64,000 nt of DNA from Gammaproteobacteria bacterium (GCA_005801205.1 SYDJ01000155.1:1-64000), one strand, 5' to 3'; positions 1-37,927 are shown, counted from the first letter of the stretch. Program-made: numbers and translations. The notes: generated from the sequence alone by a model not told the origin.

Positions 1-333
1 CACTCATCAGGGTTAAGGTTTTGGCGGAATGAGTTACCCATTCTGTTAAACCCTTGATCACAAGGATCCCAAAAAATCAGCAGTGCCTGTTGGTATCCAG
101 CTATATCTCAGAGCTTCGACCTGTTAACAAAAATTTGAAAATAAAACTAGGGTCAGTGTAGAGTTTGAGTTTTGATCAATCCTTTTTAAAACAAATAGCA
201 TCCTCTAAGCCCAGCACAGTAAATGTGCTGGGCTTTTTTATGTTTGCTATTTTCGTTAACGAAAAAAATAAGTGAGGAGGAAAGGTCTAGTGCAGGATAG
301 CGTTTAGGGTGCCTTTCTTAATATTGAACAAAA

Positions 334-376
334 AAGCGCCCCAACCCCTTAGCGGCCATAGCTGCTAAGGGGCGAA
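334..376. terminator. Stem-loop terminator downstream of first TA module
   Basis: cgccccaaCCCCTTAGCggccatagctGCTAAGGGGcg inverted repeat just after the toxin stop (minus strand). Confidence 0.6.
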
Positions 377-377
377 G

Positions 378-683
378 TTATTGATCTAGCTTTATGTCGT
401 CAGGTTTTAAATCGCGGCGTTTGTGAAATAGCGTGAGCACAAATTTCTTATCGGCTTGTACGTGATAAATCACTCGCCAAGCGTGAATGTGAATTTCGCG
501 TACATCGTCCCGATCTAGCTCAGGTACTTTTTTGCCCAGTGCATCATGCGGTAACGAGAGCGTGGCATTGGTCTTGTTCACAATATCCGCTGCAACCTTT
601 TTGGCGTTCAGCGGTGCGTCTTTAGCGATACGGCTGTGAATGGCTTTTAAATCAGCTTGCGCAAGCGGTGTCCAAATTACCAC
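378..683 (-). CDS. ParE/RelE-superfamily toxin
   Basis: 101 aa; VIWTPLAQADLKAIHSRIA...DDVREIHIHAWRVIYHVQADKKFVLTLFHKRRDL typical ParE/RelE fold; overlaps upstream small antitoxin ORF. Confidence 0.85.
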   Translation of the reverse strand: MVIWTPLAQADLKAIHSRIAKDAPLNAKKVAADIVNKTNATLSLPHDALGKKVPELDRDDVREIHIHAWRVIYHVQADKKFVLTLFHKRRDLKPDDIKLDQ

Positions 684-862
684 TGTTCAATCTCACGCAA
701 TAACTCTTCACTGCTAATGCCTTGGCCTTGCTCGGCTTGTTCTAAACCTTGGTGGATTTTTTTAACCACGAAAAGGCGGTAGAGAATATCGTCAAAATTC
801 ACTGTATCTGGCAAGTGATTGATCACATCAATTGCCTCTTGCTTAGCAGTTTGTAGGTACAT
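677..862 (-). CDS. Small antitoxin paired with ParE-like toxin
   Basis: 61 aa; MYLQTAKQEAIDVINHLPDTVNFDDILYRLFVVKKIHQGLEQAEQGQGIS; paralogous to ORFs 1475-1663 and 3136-3342. Confidence 0.75.
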   Translation of the reverse strand: MYLQTAKQEAIDVINHLPDTVNFDDILYRLFVVKKIHQGLEQAEQGQGISSEELLREIEQW

Positions 863-878
863 AGGTTTCCCCTTAGTT

Positions 879-950
879 GCGCCGTTGCGTTGACCAGCGG
901 CGAGTTTCGTACTTAATAATCATGCCCTCAAGCAGTTCTAGAAAATAGGT
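879..950 (-). pseudogene. C-terminal remnant of XRE-like regulator
   Basis: Minus-strand reading FLELLEGMIIKYETRRWSTQRRN* with no upstream gene body. Confidence 0.45.
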
Positions 951-1003
951 GCCGGAGGGATTTAATTTTAACCAGTCCTTTTTAAATAGAGAAAACACTT
1001 CCT

Positions 1004-1034
1004 AAAGCCAGCACAGAAATGCGCTGGCTTTTTT
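1004..1034. terminator. Terminator, repeated family (aaagccagcac...gcgctggcttttt)
   Basis: AAAGCCAGCacagaaatgcGCTGGCTTTTTT; related copies at 208-240 and 1841-1870. Confidence 0.7.
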
Positions 1035-1040
1035 GTCTTT

Positions 1041-1149
1041 CCTTCGGCAACTGCTCCTGCGTTGCTCTACAGCCGCTAGTTCCAGACGCGGCTGAATCCG
1101 CTAACGTCCTGTTAGGGGTACCTCCTGCATCCATGCAGTCGTAGTTGCT
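1041..1149. repeat. 109-bp hairpin-rich repeat, copy 1
   Basis: Matches 2716-2824 with 2 differences by eye; contains AGCCGC..GCGGCT, CTAACgtcctGTTAG and CTGCATccATGCAG hairpins. Confidence 0.85.
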
Positions 1150-1157
1150 AGATTCGA

Positions 1158-1478
1158 TTATTGAATAGGTTTATTCCAAGCCTGATTTTTGGTATTGCTC
1201 AAATCTCGACTACCATGAACCACCGAAACAATCACAATTTCTTGCTGTGTTTCTCTAAGCTGGTAAATGGCGCGATAGCCTTGATAAACAATTTCACGAA
1301 TATCATCGCGCTCGGCTTCAGGTACAAGGCGACCACTTTGTGGGAACTCCGGTAAACCTTCAAGCCGTGCTGCTAATCGTGTAATAAATTGGCGGGCATA
1401 AAACGGTGAATCCAGTGCGATGTAATCACGAAGCTGTGCGACATCTTTTAACGCGCGTTTAGACCAACGTAATTTCAT
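1158..1478 (-). CDS. ParE-family toxin
   Basis: 106 aa; MKLRWSKRALKDVAQLRDYIALDSPFYARQF...GYRAIYQLRETQQEIVIVSVVHGSRDL. Confidence 0.88.
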   Translation of the reverse strand: MKLRWSKRALKDVAQLRDYIALDSPFYARQFITRLAARLEGLPEFPQSGRLVPEAERDDIREIVYQGYRAIYQLRETQQEIVIVSVVHGSRDLSNTKNQAWNKPIQ

Positions 1479-1663
1479 GCCTTCCAGTTACCTAACAGTT
1501 CTTGCATGGCATCTTCGTGCGAAATAGTGCGGCCTTCTTCAATATCCTTCAAGCCCTCTTCAATTTTCTGGCGCACAAAAACGGTGTACATCACATCATC
1601 CCATGTGGCCTGTTCGGGTAAATGGTCGGCAATCTCGTGAACAATTTGTTGCATGGTTTGCAT
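1475..1663 (-). CDS. Antitoxin partner of ParE-like toxin
   Basis: 62 aa; overlaps toxin start by 4 nt; paralogous to 677-862. Confidence 0.75.
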   Translation of the reverse strand: MQTMQQIVHEIADHLPEQATWDDVMYTVFVRQKIEEGLKDIEEGRTISHEDAMQELLGNWKA

Positions 1664-1674
1664 GGGTAGTTCCT

Positions 1675-1738
1675 CACTAAACCTGTTGAATAACGGTATC
1701 CAGCATATCCATCACGAAACGCTGTTTGGTTTTGCAGA
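1675..1738 (-). pseudogene. C-terminal remnant of XRE-like regulator
   Basis: Minus-strand reading FFCKTKQRFVMDMLDTVIQQV*. Confidence 0.4.
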
Positions 1739-1840
1739 AAAAGGGGAGGAATTAAATTTTAATCAGTCTTTCCTGCTCTACCGATCAATAGTATCAGTCT
1801 CGATTGATTTTTAATTCTTTTTTTAAGAAATACCCACCCT

Positions 1841-1872
1841 AAAGCCAGCTCAGGAATGTGCTGGCTTTTTGC
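1841..1872. terminator. Terminator, repeated family
   Basis: aaagccagctcaggaatgtgctggcttttt. Confidence 0.6.
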
Positions 1873-1878
1873 TTTTTC

Positions 1879-2301
1879 TTAGTTGCTCGCCAGAATCCGC
1901 TGTAAAGCATCGGCTGGATTTAAAATATCAATGCCGCGCCACGGGTGCAGAACCAGTAAATCTTTATCCCCAGAAATAATCAGGTGCGCTTGTGCTGCAA
2001 TTGCACAGGCGAGTACAGCATCATCATCGATGTCACGCGATACCGGAAAAGCTAAAGCTGCTGCGTTGATCGTGCGTGTGAGCGCACTGTAACGTTCAAT
2101 AATATCGGTAGGTGTTAAGCGTTTGCTCTCAAGTTGGCCTATCCATTTATCACGGGATAGCACATCGGCAAGCTCAATGAGTAATTCAGTGCTGGTGTAC
2201 AGTGTGATAATACCTTGGTGCGCTAAATCCATGACCTTGCGCGGTGCACCACCCCAAAATAATGCTGAAATAATCCCATTAGTATCTAACACTACACGCA
2301 T
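1879..2301 (-). CDS. PIN-domain toxin (VapC-like)
   Basis: 140 aa; MRVVLDTNGIISALFWGGAPRKV...DDDAVLACAIAAQAHLIISGDKDLL, PIN acidic motifs. Confidence 0.9.
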   Translation of the reverse strand: MRVVLDTNGIISALFWGGAPRKVMDLAHQGIITLYTSTELLIELADVLSRDKWIGQLESKRLTPTDIIERYSALTRTINAAALAFPVSRDIDDDAVLACAIAAQAHLIISGDKDLLVLHPWRGIDILNPADALQRILASN

Positions 2302-2552
2302 TAACGCACACTCGCTCGGCGGGCAGCGCGTACGGCATTCACGTCAGCTTGAATTTCTTCCATTGTCATAGGCGGCATGTCTAACGCTGTTAATTCATCA
2401 GCTATGACAAAAAGTTCATCGGCTGCTTTTTTACGAACGGCCTCGCGTAGTAAATGCTCCATAGCTTCTGGTTTAAATAAACCTGCTTGATTGGCCGCAA
2501 GGGCAAGGCTTTCGGGAATGTTTAAGGTTAATTGCACGGTGGTCATGGTCAA
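2301..2552 (-). CDS. Antitoxin partner of PIN toxin
   Basis: 83 aa; TVQLTLNIPESLALAANQAGLFKPEAMEHLLREAVRKKA; abuts the toxin. Confidence 0.8.
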   Translation of the reverse strand: MTMTTVQLTLNIPESLALAANQAGLFKPEAMEHLLREAVRKKAADELFVIADELTALDMPPMTMEEIQADVNAVRAARRASVR

Positions 2553-2569
2553 TTCCTCTCGCTTTTTAG

Positions 2570-2669
2570 GCGGCTAATACGCGGTTCATTTGGGCACGTT
2601 TTACAAGGCTATCCATGAGTATAACCAAGGCTTGCTGGTCTTCGTCAGGTAGTTCATCGACTTCTTGTA
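2570..2669 (-). pseudogene. C-terminal remnant of XRE-like regulator
   Basis: Minus-strand reading LLQEVDELPDEDQQALVILMDSLVKRAQMNRVLAA*. Confidence 0.5.
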
Positions 2670-2698
2670 ACAGTAAAGGGCTCTGCCCCCTTTTGTCT
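2669..2698. repeat. ~29-bp hairpin repeat AACAGTAAAGGGCTCTGCCCC(C)TTTTGTCT, copy 1
   Basis: Same sequence (one extra C here) at 3615-3643. Confidence 0.8.
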
Positions 2699-2715
2699 CT
2701 GGCTTTTTTATTTTC

Positions 2716-2824
2716 CCTTCGGCAACTGCTCCTGCGTTGCTCTACAGCCGCTAGTTCCAGACGCGGCTGAATCCCCTAACGTCCTGTTAGGGGTATCTCC
2801 TGCATCCATGCAGTCGTAGTTGCT
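2716..2824. repeat. 109-bp hairpin-rich repeat, copy 2
   Basis: See 1041-1149. Confidence 0.85.
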
Positions 2825-2835
2825 GTTTTTAATTG

Positions 2836-3149
2836 TTAATGTGTTTCCCAAGGCTGGTGCTCAGGGTTGGTTAAATCACGGCTACCATGTAACACGGTAA
2901 GAATGTCGATACGCTGTTCATTCATCACCCAATAAATAATGCGGTAGCTCTGAAAATCAGTTCGCGAATATCTTCTCGCTCGGCTTCAGGTACAGGGCGA
3001 CCACTTAACGGAAAAGTGTCTAGCCTGTCGGCAGAGTCGATAATCTGCTGTACAACCCGCTCTGCATAATAGGGTGCTTCTTGGTGAATATAATCATAAA
3101 TATTGTCGAGCGCCTTTTGGGCTTTGAGTGTCCAATTAACGCTGACCAT
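2836..3149 (-). pseudogene. Frameshifted ParE-family toxin
   Basis: N-terminal ORF ...REDIRELIF continues in another frame as QSYRIIYWVMNEQRIDILTVLHGSRDLTNPEHQPWETH*; consistent with one missing nt in ATTTTC[C]AGAGC. Confidence 0.8.
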
Positions 3150-3342
3150 TCTGATATCGCTTTTTCATTTCAGAGTGTGGAACAACACGGCCAGCCAATG
3201 AATCTTGCATGCCGAGTTCAATTTGCTCGCGTACATGAAGTGTGTAGAGCGAATCATTTAGCTGGTAGCGAATATCGTTAAGCGTGGCGCTGTCTGGCAG
3301 TGTGTCCAGCAATTGCCGAACTTGTTCTTTAGCGGTTTGCAT
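3136..3342 (-). CDS. Antitoxin partner of frameshifted ParE toxin
   Basis: 68 aa; MQTAKEQVRQLLDTLPDSATLNDIRYQL; paralogous to 677-862. Confidence 0.72.
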   Translation of the reverse strand: MQTAKEQVRQLLDTLPDSATLNDIRYQLNDSLYTLHVREQIELGMQDSLAGRVVPHSEMKKRYQNGQR

Positions 3343-3361
3343 AAAACATTCTCAGTGATGA

Positions 3362-3614
3362 TTAGGCGCTTTGGTTTTGCGCATTGGCTGATAAGCGGTT
3401 GGCCGTGTGTTTGAGAATCAGGCTATCGAGTGAAACACCCGCCACATAACGCTCAGACGACGTGAAATCCTTTAATGCCTCAAGCGTAGCCGAAAATCTT
3501 CGTCAGGGTCACGAGCATGGTCGTTAAATACCAGTATCAAGGCTCACATGCAATCCTCTAGCAAGGCTTACCAACGCATCCAGTGTAGGTTGGGCAGTGC
3601 CTGCTTCATAGCGG
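3362..3614 (-). pseudogene. Truncated, frameshifted XRE-family regulator
   Basis: Minus-strand pieces RYEAGTAQPTLDALVSLARGLHVSLDT ... FNDHARDPDEDFR ... LEALKDFTSSERYVAGVSLDSLILKHTANRLSANAQNQSA*. Confidence 0.65.
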
Positions 3615-3643
3615 AACAGTAAAGGGCTCTGCCCCTTTTGTCT
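3615..3643. repeat. 29-bp hairpin repeat, copy 2
   Basis: AACAGTAAAGGGCTCTGCCCCTTTTGTCT; lies at the truncated 5' edge of the XRE remnant. Confidence 0.8.
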
Positions 3644-3650
3644 TCTTTTG

Positions 3651-3923
3651 TCATGGGTATTTCCTACGGACATGCAAAACACGTAGAATTTCAATTATTT
3701 CATTCTTTATTCTGTAATAGACAATGTAATTTTCATGGATTACTAGCTCGCGAGTCAAAAGAACAGCTCCAGGCCGACCAAGAAGAGGGAAATCTTTAAG
3801 ATTAGCAATCTGTTTGAGCGTATCTAGCATGAACTGCCTAGATGCACTGGTATTGTCAGCCGCAATATGAGCGAGGATCGCCTCAAAATTTTGAGACGCT
3901 CTTTTAGTCCACTTAATTTGCAT
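3651..3923 (-). CDS. RelE/ParE-family toxin
   Basis: Likely start MQIKWTKRASQNFEAILAHIAADNTSASRQF...YIVYYRIKNEIIEILRVLHVRRKYP. Confidence 0.88.
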   Translation of the reverse strand: MQIKWTKRASQNFEAILAHIAADNTSASRQFMLDTLKQIANLKDFPLLGRPGAVLLTRELVIHENYIVYYRIKNEIIEILRVLHVRRKYP

Positions 3924-4161
3924 ATTTAGCAAAAATAGCAGCCATTTCAGCATCTGTCGCAAACTCACCACGGTCAGCCTCTTCAATACCAGCCTTTACC
4001 TCAGCAATTTGCCAGAGTTGTTGGTCAATATATGCCTCAAGAGCCTCTACCGCCAGAAAACTTTTCGTCCGCCCTGTGGCTTTCGTGAGGGAGTCCAATT
4101 GGACGGCTAAATCCATAGGAAGACGAACATTGAGTGGTTTTTCAGTGGCTGTAGCCTTCAT
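3913..4161 (-). CDS. Ribbon-helix-helix (CopG/RHH-type) antitoxin
   Basis: LNVRLPMDLAVQLDSLTKATGRTKSFLAVEALEAYIDQQLWQIAEVKAGIEEADRGEFATDAEMAAIF. Confidence 0.88.
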   Translation of the reverse strand: MKATATEKPLNVRLPMDLAVQLDSLTKATGRTKSFLAVEALEAYIDQQLWQIAEVKAGIEEADRGEFATDAEMAAIFAKYAN

Positions 4162-4344
4162 GGTGGCCTCTTATGTGCTGATTGCATGCTTTACAAAATT
4201 TGTATTACGTATATATTTTATGTATTACAAAAATTCTGTCAAGTTGAACCAAAATCAAGTGGTGGATTATCGGCCTTTATGTTGTCCACCGACGAATAGT
4301 AAAAGGGGTCAGTAAAAAAAGGTTCGGAACCCTTTGGGAGTTAT

Positions 4345-4716
4345 ATGAAATCACGAATTGAAATAGACAGGACTCAGCGCGACGTATTTTCTCGTGAAGT
4401 TGATCTCAAAAAATCACAGTTTCAATTGTCGCGACGAGCCTTGATCCGCATTGTTTTAGGCTTTGCGATTTTTCTGTTACCCATATGGCTTGCATACCAT
4501 TTTGAACAATACCCACAAATGTGGATGGCAATTGGCTTCGCTATTTTGATTTCGGCTTTTCAACTTCTATTCTACGGTTATGAATCAAGCCCCAAAGACG
4601 AAGCTGAACTTAAAGTAACTAACTTCTATAGCAAAGGTGTTTTGATATTTCTTGTTATTTTTTGGACCGTGCTGATAGGTGGCGTTTCGGTTGCTTTGTA
4701 TTTGAAGCTGCCTTGA
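4345..4716 (+). CDS. Hypothetical protein with predicted TM helices
   Basis: 123 aa with about 3 hydrophobic segments. Confidence 0.5.
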   Translation: MKSRIEIDRTQRDVFSREVDLKKSQFQLSRRALIRIVLGFAIFLLPIWLAYHFEQYPQMWMAIGFAILISAFQLLFYGYESSPKDEAELKVTNFYSKGVLIFLVIFWTVLIGGVSVALYLKLP

Positions 4717-4725
4717 CCCCAACTT

Positions 4726-37643: not shown

Positions 37644-37927
37644 AGTTAGTTTATTCCAAAGAATCCATTCAGGATTTGATACGGCTGCGTGAATTTATTG
37701 CTATCAAAAATCCAGAGGCTGCAAAACGAATCGCAGCGGAATTAATCGCCCGAATTCAGCAACTCTGCTTATTTCCCGCTATGGGTCGCCCCGTTGAATT
37801 AGCCCCTACGCCCGAGGCCATTCGCGATTTTGTGTTTGGCGACTATATTGTGCGCTACTCGATTCACAACGGCGCGCTGACTATTTTGCGGATTTGGCAT
37901 CACTTGGAAGATATGAATAAGCGCTGA
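37640..37927 (+). CDS. ParE-family toxin
   Basis: MKLVYSKESIQDLIRLREFIAIKNPEAAKRIAAELIARIQQLCLFPAMGRPV...YIVRYSIHNGALTILRIWHHLEDM. Confidence 0.93.
   Translation: MKLVYSKESIQDLIRLREFIAIKNPEAAKRIAAELIARIQQLCLFPAMGRPVELAPTPEAIRDFVFGDYIVRYSIHNGALTILRIWHHLEDMNKR

Follow-up and report, generated by a model that had tools for sequence, protein, structure and literature searches.

Behind polymorphic-toxin genes, orphan cdiA-CT/cdiI modules and orphan rhs tip/immunity pairs form tandem arrays in which displaced modules persist as fossils (Ruhe et al., 2016; PMC4927057). For the orphan cdiA-CT/cdiI arrays, serial integration into the polymorphic-toxin gene was proposed, with older modules being pushed downstream; these arrays contain intervening integrase genes and were called a possible fossil record, and a primase is not mentioned for them (PMC4927057). 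The origin of chromosomal clusters of toxin-antitoxin (TA) modules is an old question.

Here we analysed a 64,000-nt stretch of DNA (the window), the minus strand of which carries five TA modules at 378-4161, with four ParE_toxin toxins and one PIN_3 toxin according to Pfam. Judged by gene order and by comparison with related genomes, this array probably represents what erosion has left of several integrative elements, inserted one by one into a single polymorphic-toxin locus. The remnant status of four of the modules is well supported; the serial order of entry and an erosion limited by addiction are steps that we infer.

Gene content and flanks of the array

Base 1 of the window is base 1 of contig C133, and the genome to which it belongs (G000, the own genome) is fragmented into 253 contigs and 77% complete. 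The contig starts within a sequence shared with contig C138, which looks like an assembly overlap at a repeat, and no plasmid match was found for the left-border sequence 1-260. The genes are listed here together with relatives in G011, a genome of the same genus, and in the own genome.

1-141, no strand assigned: right end of a repeat at the assembly break, identical to the start of contig C138
378-683, minus: TA1 toxin, ParE_toxin (PF05016), 55.5 bits
677-862, minus: putative TA1 antitoxin, 44% to the antitoxin in the same slot of G011 locus L120
1158-1478, minus: TA2 toxin, ParE_toxin, 74.3 bits
1475-1663, minus: putative TA2 antitoxin, 56% to G011 locus L047, 61% to own contig C124
1879-2301, minus: PIN_3 toxin, VapC-like, PF13470 66.0 bits and TIGR00305 72.1 bits, both above cut-off
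2301-2552, minus: putative antitoxin of the PIN module, relative in the same slot of G011 locus L046
about 2848-3149, minus: TA3 toxin, frameshifted near 2952, ParE_toxin, 43.9 bits for the intact part
3136-3342, minus: TA3 antitoxin, no indel against G011
about 3651-3920, minus: TA4 toxin, ParE_toxin, 65.5 bits
3913-4161, minus: TA4 RHH antitoxin, 48.9 bits, NCBIfam RelB family cut-off 50

Toxins were called from Pfam scores above the gathering cut-off. The antitoxins are weaker: that of TA4 falls just short of the RelB cut-off, the others gave no family match above cut-off in Pfam or NCBIfam, and the antitoxin calls therefore rest on position and size. The TA3 toxin is broken by a 1-nt deletion near 2952, which is plain against its G011 homologue, and its antitoxin is intact. 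A promoter-like site lies upstream of TA4 at 4242-4215. The intact TA pairs left in the window probably act as ordinary chromosomal TA systems.

An earlier reading of the same DNA, made from the sequence alone, had reported five TA pairs on the minus strand, one of them VapBC-like, and the domain scores confirm both statements. For the pair which it took to be RHH/RelE-like, a toxin of the ParE_toxin family is present at TA4, the RHH antitoxin scoring slightly below the RelB cut-off. Its three paralogous modules are, however, no recent local duplicates. Among themselves, the TA1-TA3 antitoxins are 29-37% and the toxins 30-38% identical, while antitoxin 3 reaches 82% to L045, antitoxin 2 reaches 56-61% to L047 and C124, and antitoxin 1 reaches 44-46% to L120 and C162. 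Thus local duplication was rejected, as each of these modules has a closer relative elsewhere.

The sequence-only reading had also proposed, as a test, a comparison with the orthologous locus of close relatives, and beside the same flanking gene the array was absent from the relatives looked at. Other neighbours replace it there beside the flanking AraC-type gene, and the array is therefore local to the own genome. A clean empty site was not found among the relatives examined, in which the array's side of the AraC-type gene varies.

Integrative elements with a slot for TA pairs

Relatives of four of the window modules reside in G011 as cargo of an element with the order toxin tip, immunity gene, terminator R, TA pair, XRE regulator, CHC2/Toprim primase and XerC-type recombinase. 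The gene pair before R lies on the plus strand, the TA pair and XRE lie on the opposite strand, and the primase is divergent. The primase gene, about 1000 codons long, encodes CHC2, DnaG N-terminal and Toprim domains; the recombinase is a tyrosine recombinase above the NCBIfam XerC-subfamily cut-off. R, TA pair, XRE and primase follow each other in this order at five G011 loci, with a TA pair in every slot (5/5); L046 and L118 are complete with recombinase, and the other three are cut by contig ends. Compared with the window, the G011 cargo includes relatives of TA1 (39-44%), TA2 (48-57%), the PIN module (44%) and TA3 (82%, for DNA including the XRE tail). At L118, the cargo pair looks like HigBA, judged by sequence and gene order. 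Of the two genes upstream of R at this locus, the tip has an AHH nuclease domain and the next gene a weak Imm11 match, in keeping with a polymorphic-toxin tip followed by its immunity gene. Tandem copies of the element occur at L111, L115 and L134. The L111 repeat unit starts and ends in about 97 bp of an RHS-core region, which would be the attachment site.

Among the genomes of the family, 11 of 145 have a related primase, as do 9 of 377 genomes sampled from the class; at least in part, it also occurs on 216 plasmid records. The annotated plasmid cases have the same order behind large surface-protein or hemagglutinin-like genes: an immunity-sized gene, in some cases with a VbhA or SymE gene, then HTH, primase, XerC, often a RelE/ParE pair, and the next toxin piece. 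Among 101 cargo and regulator proteins from element loci we counted 35 HTH_3, 5 ParE_toxin and 4 SymE proteins and one each of RelE, PIN_3, BrnT and BrnA. Neither a description nor a name of an element with this gene content was found in the literature searched, which comprised neither preprints nor most subscription journals, and this absence does not show that the element is undescribed.

Recurrent parts between the modules

Four of the five window modules keep the order R, TA pair, XRE 3' end, with R halved at TA3, and this slot order is that of G011. The XRE 3' ends stand directly upstream of the TA genes on the same strand, and no whole XRE gene is present there.

879-938, minus: XRE tail upstream of TA1, 70% to the C-terminal 20 residues of an element XRE, E 2e-6 and 4e-6
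1683-1775, minus: XRE tail upstream of TA2, 55%, E 3.5e-5, the weakest of the four
2575-2673, minus: XRE tail upstream of the PIN module, 58% to an element XRE (residues 139-171)
3365-3613, minus: XRE tail upstream of TA3, corresponding to the L045 regulator of G011 at residues 44-127, with two indels that shift the frame

For the tail search, the last 60 residues of 35 regulators adjoining the primase were used as queries against about 5 kb of the window. Of 46 matches in total, 43 fell inside the four XRE-tail places; with shuffled queries each round yielded 0-4 matches, and there was no match in 12 control stretches taken from the window. TA3 and its tail form a single 785-bp DNA match, 82% identical to L045, where the regulator is whole and adjoins the primase; the window copy lacks the first 43 residues. 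The truncation point of XRE is different in each window unit, and TA4 has neither R nor XRE.

These tails bear on the possibility that unrelated insertions and local duplication built up a TA hotspot here, in which the tails would be ordinary HTH genes beside TAs. HTH genes are frequent neighbours of TA genes, and units 2 and 3 have a common 139-nt block (92%). However, modules 1-3 are only 29-38% identical mutually and closer to element cargoes elsewhere, and the tails match regulators that adjoin the element primase, in the case of TA3 together with the module over the whole 785 bp. A hotspot of this kind is thus an unlikely source of the array, and we favour remnants of the elements.

XRE tails were also observed outside the window. 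In G022:C36 (L110), XRE 3'-end scars lie at 1046-1102 and 2829-2885 between toxin-tip units, and they present a parallel to the window, with the same apparent erosion and the tips kept. In G002:C58 (L053), a TA pair stands alone amid ordinary genes at 2233-2768; its XRE tail is 19 residues long, and the unit is possibly a lone scar. A second TA cluster of the own genome (L036, G000:C124:4757-6889) comprises ParE, BrnT-like and ParE modules on one strand and has a weak XRE tail upstream of one pair. A further ParE_toxin gene in the window (37649-37912, plus strand) is without an XRE tail.

The remaining recurrent parts are terminators, hairpin repeats and palindromes.

142-240, plus, stem about 207-236: R1 terminator with upstream flank, 83% to R in G006:C252
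211-371, no strand assigned: R-proximal block of about 160 nt, 82% to G011 L046, 77% to L047
956-1040, plus, stem 1004-1031: R2 terminator with upstream flank
1043-1150, plus: hairpin repeat, 108-nt long form, dispersed, 98% to 2718-2824
1841-1868, plus: R3 terminator
2669-2709, no strand assigned: palindrome AAAGGG..CCCTTT joined to the 3' half of an R terminator
2718-2824, plus: second long-form 108-nt hairpin repeat

The element terminator R (AAAGCCAGC...GCTGGCTTT) stands downstream of TA1, TA2 and the PIN module, with only half a stem at TA3. In G006:C252, R comes after an RHS gene and the small gene that follows it, and the homology to the window starts at 142. At L046 and L047, the R-proximal block precedes TA pairs different from TA1. 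Elements with different TAs therefore have the block between R1 and TA1 in common, which argues that TA pairs are exchanged within a constant frame. R-like terminators were also found behind ordinary genes, and that after a glycosidase-like gene on C171 weakens R as an element-specific site. Rfam gave only sub-threshold SdsR-like and STnc150-like scores for the terminators. The 139-nt repeat (1024-1162 and 2699-2837, 92% identical) was considered as a recombination site and rejected, as it is mostly the long form of a hairpin repeat dispersed across the genome. This long form, about 100-108 nt in length, also occurs at C131:7623-7722 and C147:17297-17384, a short form without the middle occurs at about a dozen other genome places, and the end motif is present in other genera of the family too. 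Palindromes of the AAAGGGGTCAGAGCCCTTT type lie at the window junctions 2669-2695 and 3615-3639 and near R in the G011 elements L118 (2791) and L120 (1285).

The regular order of parts could suggest that the unit of R, TA and XRE tail is a small non-autonomous cassette moved in trans by a XerC-type recombinase, making the locus a new sort of cassette array. That the order recurs and that similar TA and XRE-tail units stand singly elsewhere (G002:C58, own C124) would agree with this. We nevertheless consider it improbable: the XRE truncation points vary in every unit, whereas a cassette would have a fixed end, the right sides of the units showed no common boundary sequence, and part or all of R is lost at two of the four junctions. 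Eroded elements remain our preferred reading.

The sequence-only reading had compared the locus with a cassette array lacking recognisable attC sites. A strict consensus-box scan missed even genuine attC arrays, and a covariance model of 16 sites from the genus's own integrons was used instead. A match to the integron integrase family above cut-off is present in 37 of 58 genomes, including the own genome (C150:463-1443, a contig other than C133), and the arrays of relatives are genuine, their attC sites being 110-138 nt long. Chromosomal integrons commonly contain TA cassettes. Together with the own integrase and the single strand shared by all window modules, this would fit an integron cassette array, intact or decayed, whose attC sites are no longer recognisable. 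However, this model gave about 70 high-scoring sites in relatives, but not a single one in the window at E up to 10. The own genome has only two convincing attC sites, on other contigs (C44:12840 and C19:134) and far fewer than its relatives, and the recurrent parts are otherwise explained. Since the genus's attC sites were found in relatives and none in the window, the cassette-array reading was rejected; we regard it as largely refuted and very improbable.

The likeness to a cassette array that the sequence-only reading had seen is not borne out: its repeats prove to be terminators, XRE gene ends and a hairpin repeat dispersed in the genome, and they match the layout of the XRE-primase-XerC-type element in G011 instead of integron cassettes. 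The recurrent gap parts themselves are real (terminators at 208-236, 1004-1031 and 1841-1868, the 139-nt repeat, the palindrome at 2669 and 3615). The gene tails that it had noted are present as well, corrected to C-terminal ends of one gene kind, the XRE regulator. Of the integrase or recombinase that it had suggested to search for, the own genome yielded the integrase on C150, and the window yielded no recombinase remnant. Its view of a decaying array with recurrent boundary parts is supported, the units having apparently been acquired separately.

Proposed origin and comparison with known systems

An intact element would bring a new toxin tip with its immunity gene and the terminator R. It would also carry, on the strand opposite to these, an operon of XRE, antitoxin and toxin, and in addition the divergent gene for the primase and the gene for the XerC-type recombinase. 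Such units would have entered the polymorphic-toxin locus serially and might then have suffered deletions that extended from within XRE almost up to the next R or TA. The TA genes and some upstream sequence, perhaps a promoter, would have been spared, presumably because the loss of a TA pair is costly to the cell, killing or stalling it. No remnants of primase, recombinase, toxin tip or immunity gene were detectable in the window (tip and immunity gene were looked for in 1-4720), and neither an intact element nor related primase or recombinase copies were found in the assembled, 77% complete own genome, where the RHS core gave two short matches, one of them at a contig end. With no core remnant in the window and no intact element in the assembled genome, we therefore infer the missing middle.

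Decay is greater at the right of the array: the TA3 toxin is broken, half of the TA3 R is lost, and TA4 is without R and XRE. Entry of new units at the left would fit this pattern but is only suggested by it, because XRE-tail length does not follow the age order given by the decay of R and the frameshift. In other hosts, DinJ-RelE pairs sit at the other end of an element, and TA4 may derive from TA cargo at that end; alternatively, it may be an independent module.

If the elements were the carriers, the TA cluster described here could be traced back, one unit after another, to an element that brings a TA pair when it inserts at polymorphic-toxin loci. The XRE 3' ends and R terminators are searchable scars, by which solitary TA modules in any genome can be checked as element remnants, and they also let one ask directly whether addiction sets the possible deletion ends. 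One might speculate, and we do so tentatively, that an unnamed and widespread element family exchanges the tips of polymorphic toxins, has a fixed slot for interchangeable TA pairs and erodes with TA addiction setting the deletion limits, so that some chromosomal TA clusters would be fossils of serial weapon-swapping.

Compared with known systems, the window shares domain matches and overlapping antitoxin-toxin genes with type II TA modules (ParE/RelE, PIN VapC-like), while its antitoxins mostly score below any family cut-off and one toxin is broken. A chromosomal integron with TA cassettes likewise presents an array of TA modules on one strand, but attC sites are lacking in the window. The XRE-CHC2/Toprim primase-XerC-type elements, plasmid-borne and chromosomal, beside RHS, FHA or CdiA-like genes have the gene order seen in the window, and many copies carry TA genes as cargo. 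These elements are intact, whereas the window is without primase and recombinase and is therefore classed as remnants, not as a member. Orphan cdiA-CT/cdiI and rhs arrays keep displaced tips and immunity genes, whereas the window keeps TA pairs and XRE ends. By analogy, it would fit the serial-integration picture of the orphan arrays, with TA pairs as a different residue. While orphan toxin/immunity fossil arrays are known, the TA-only version appears to be new.
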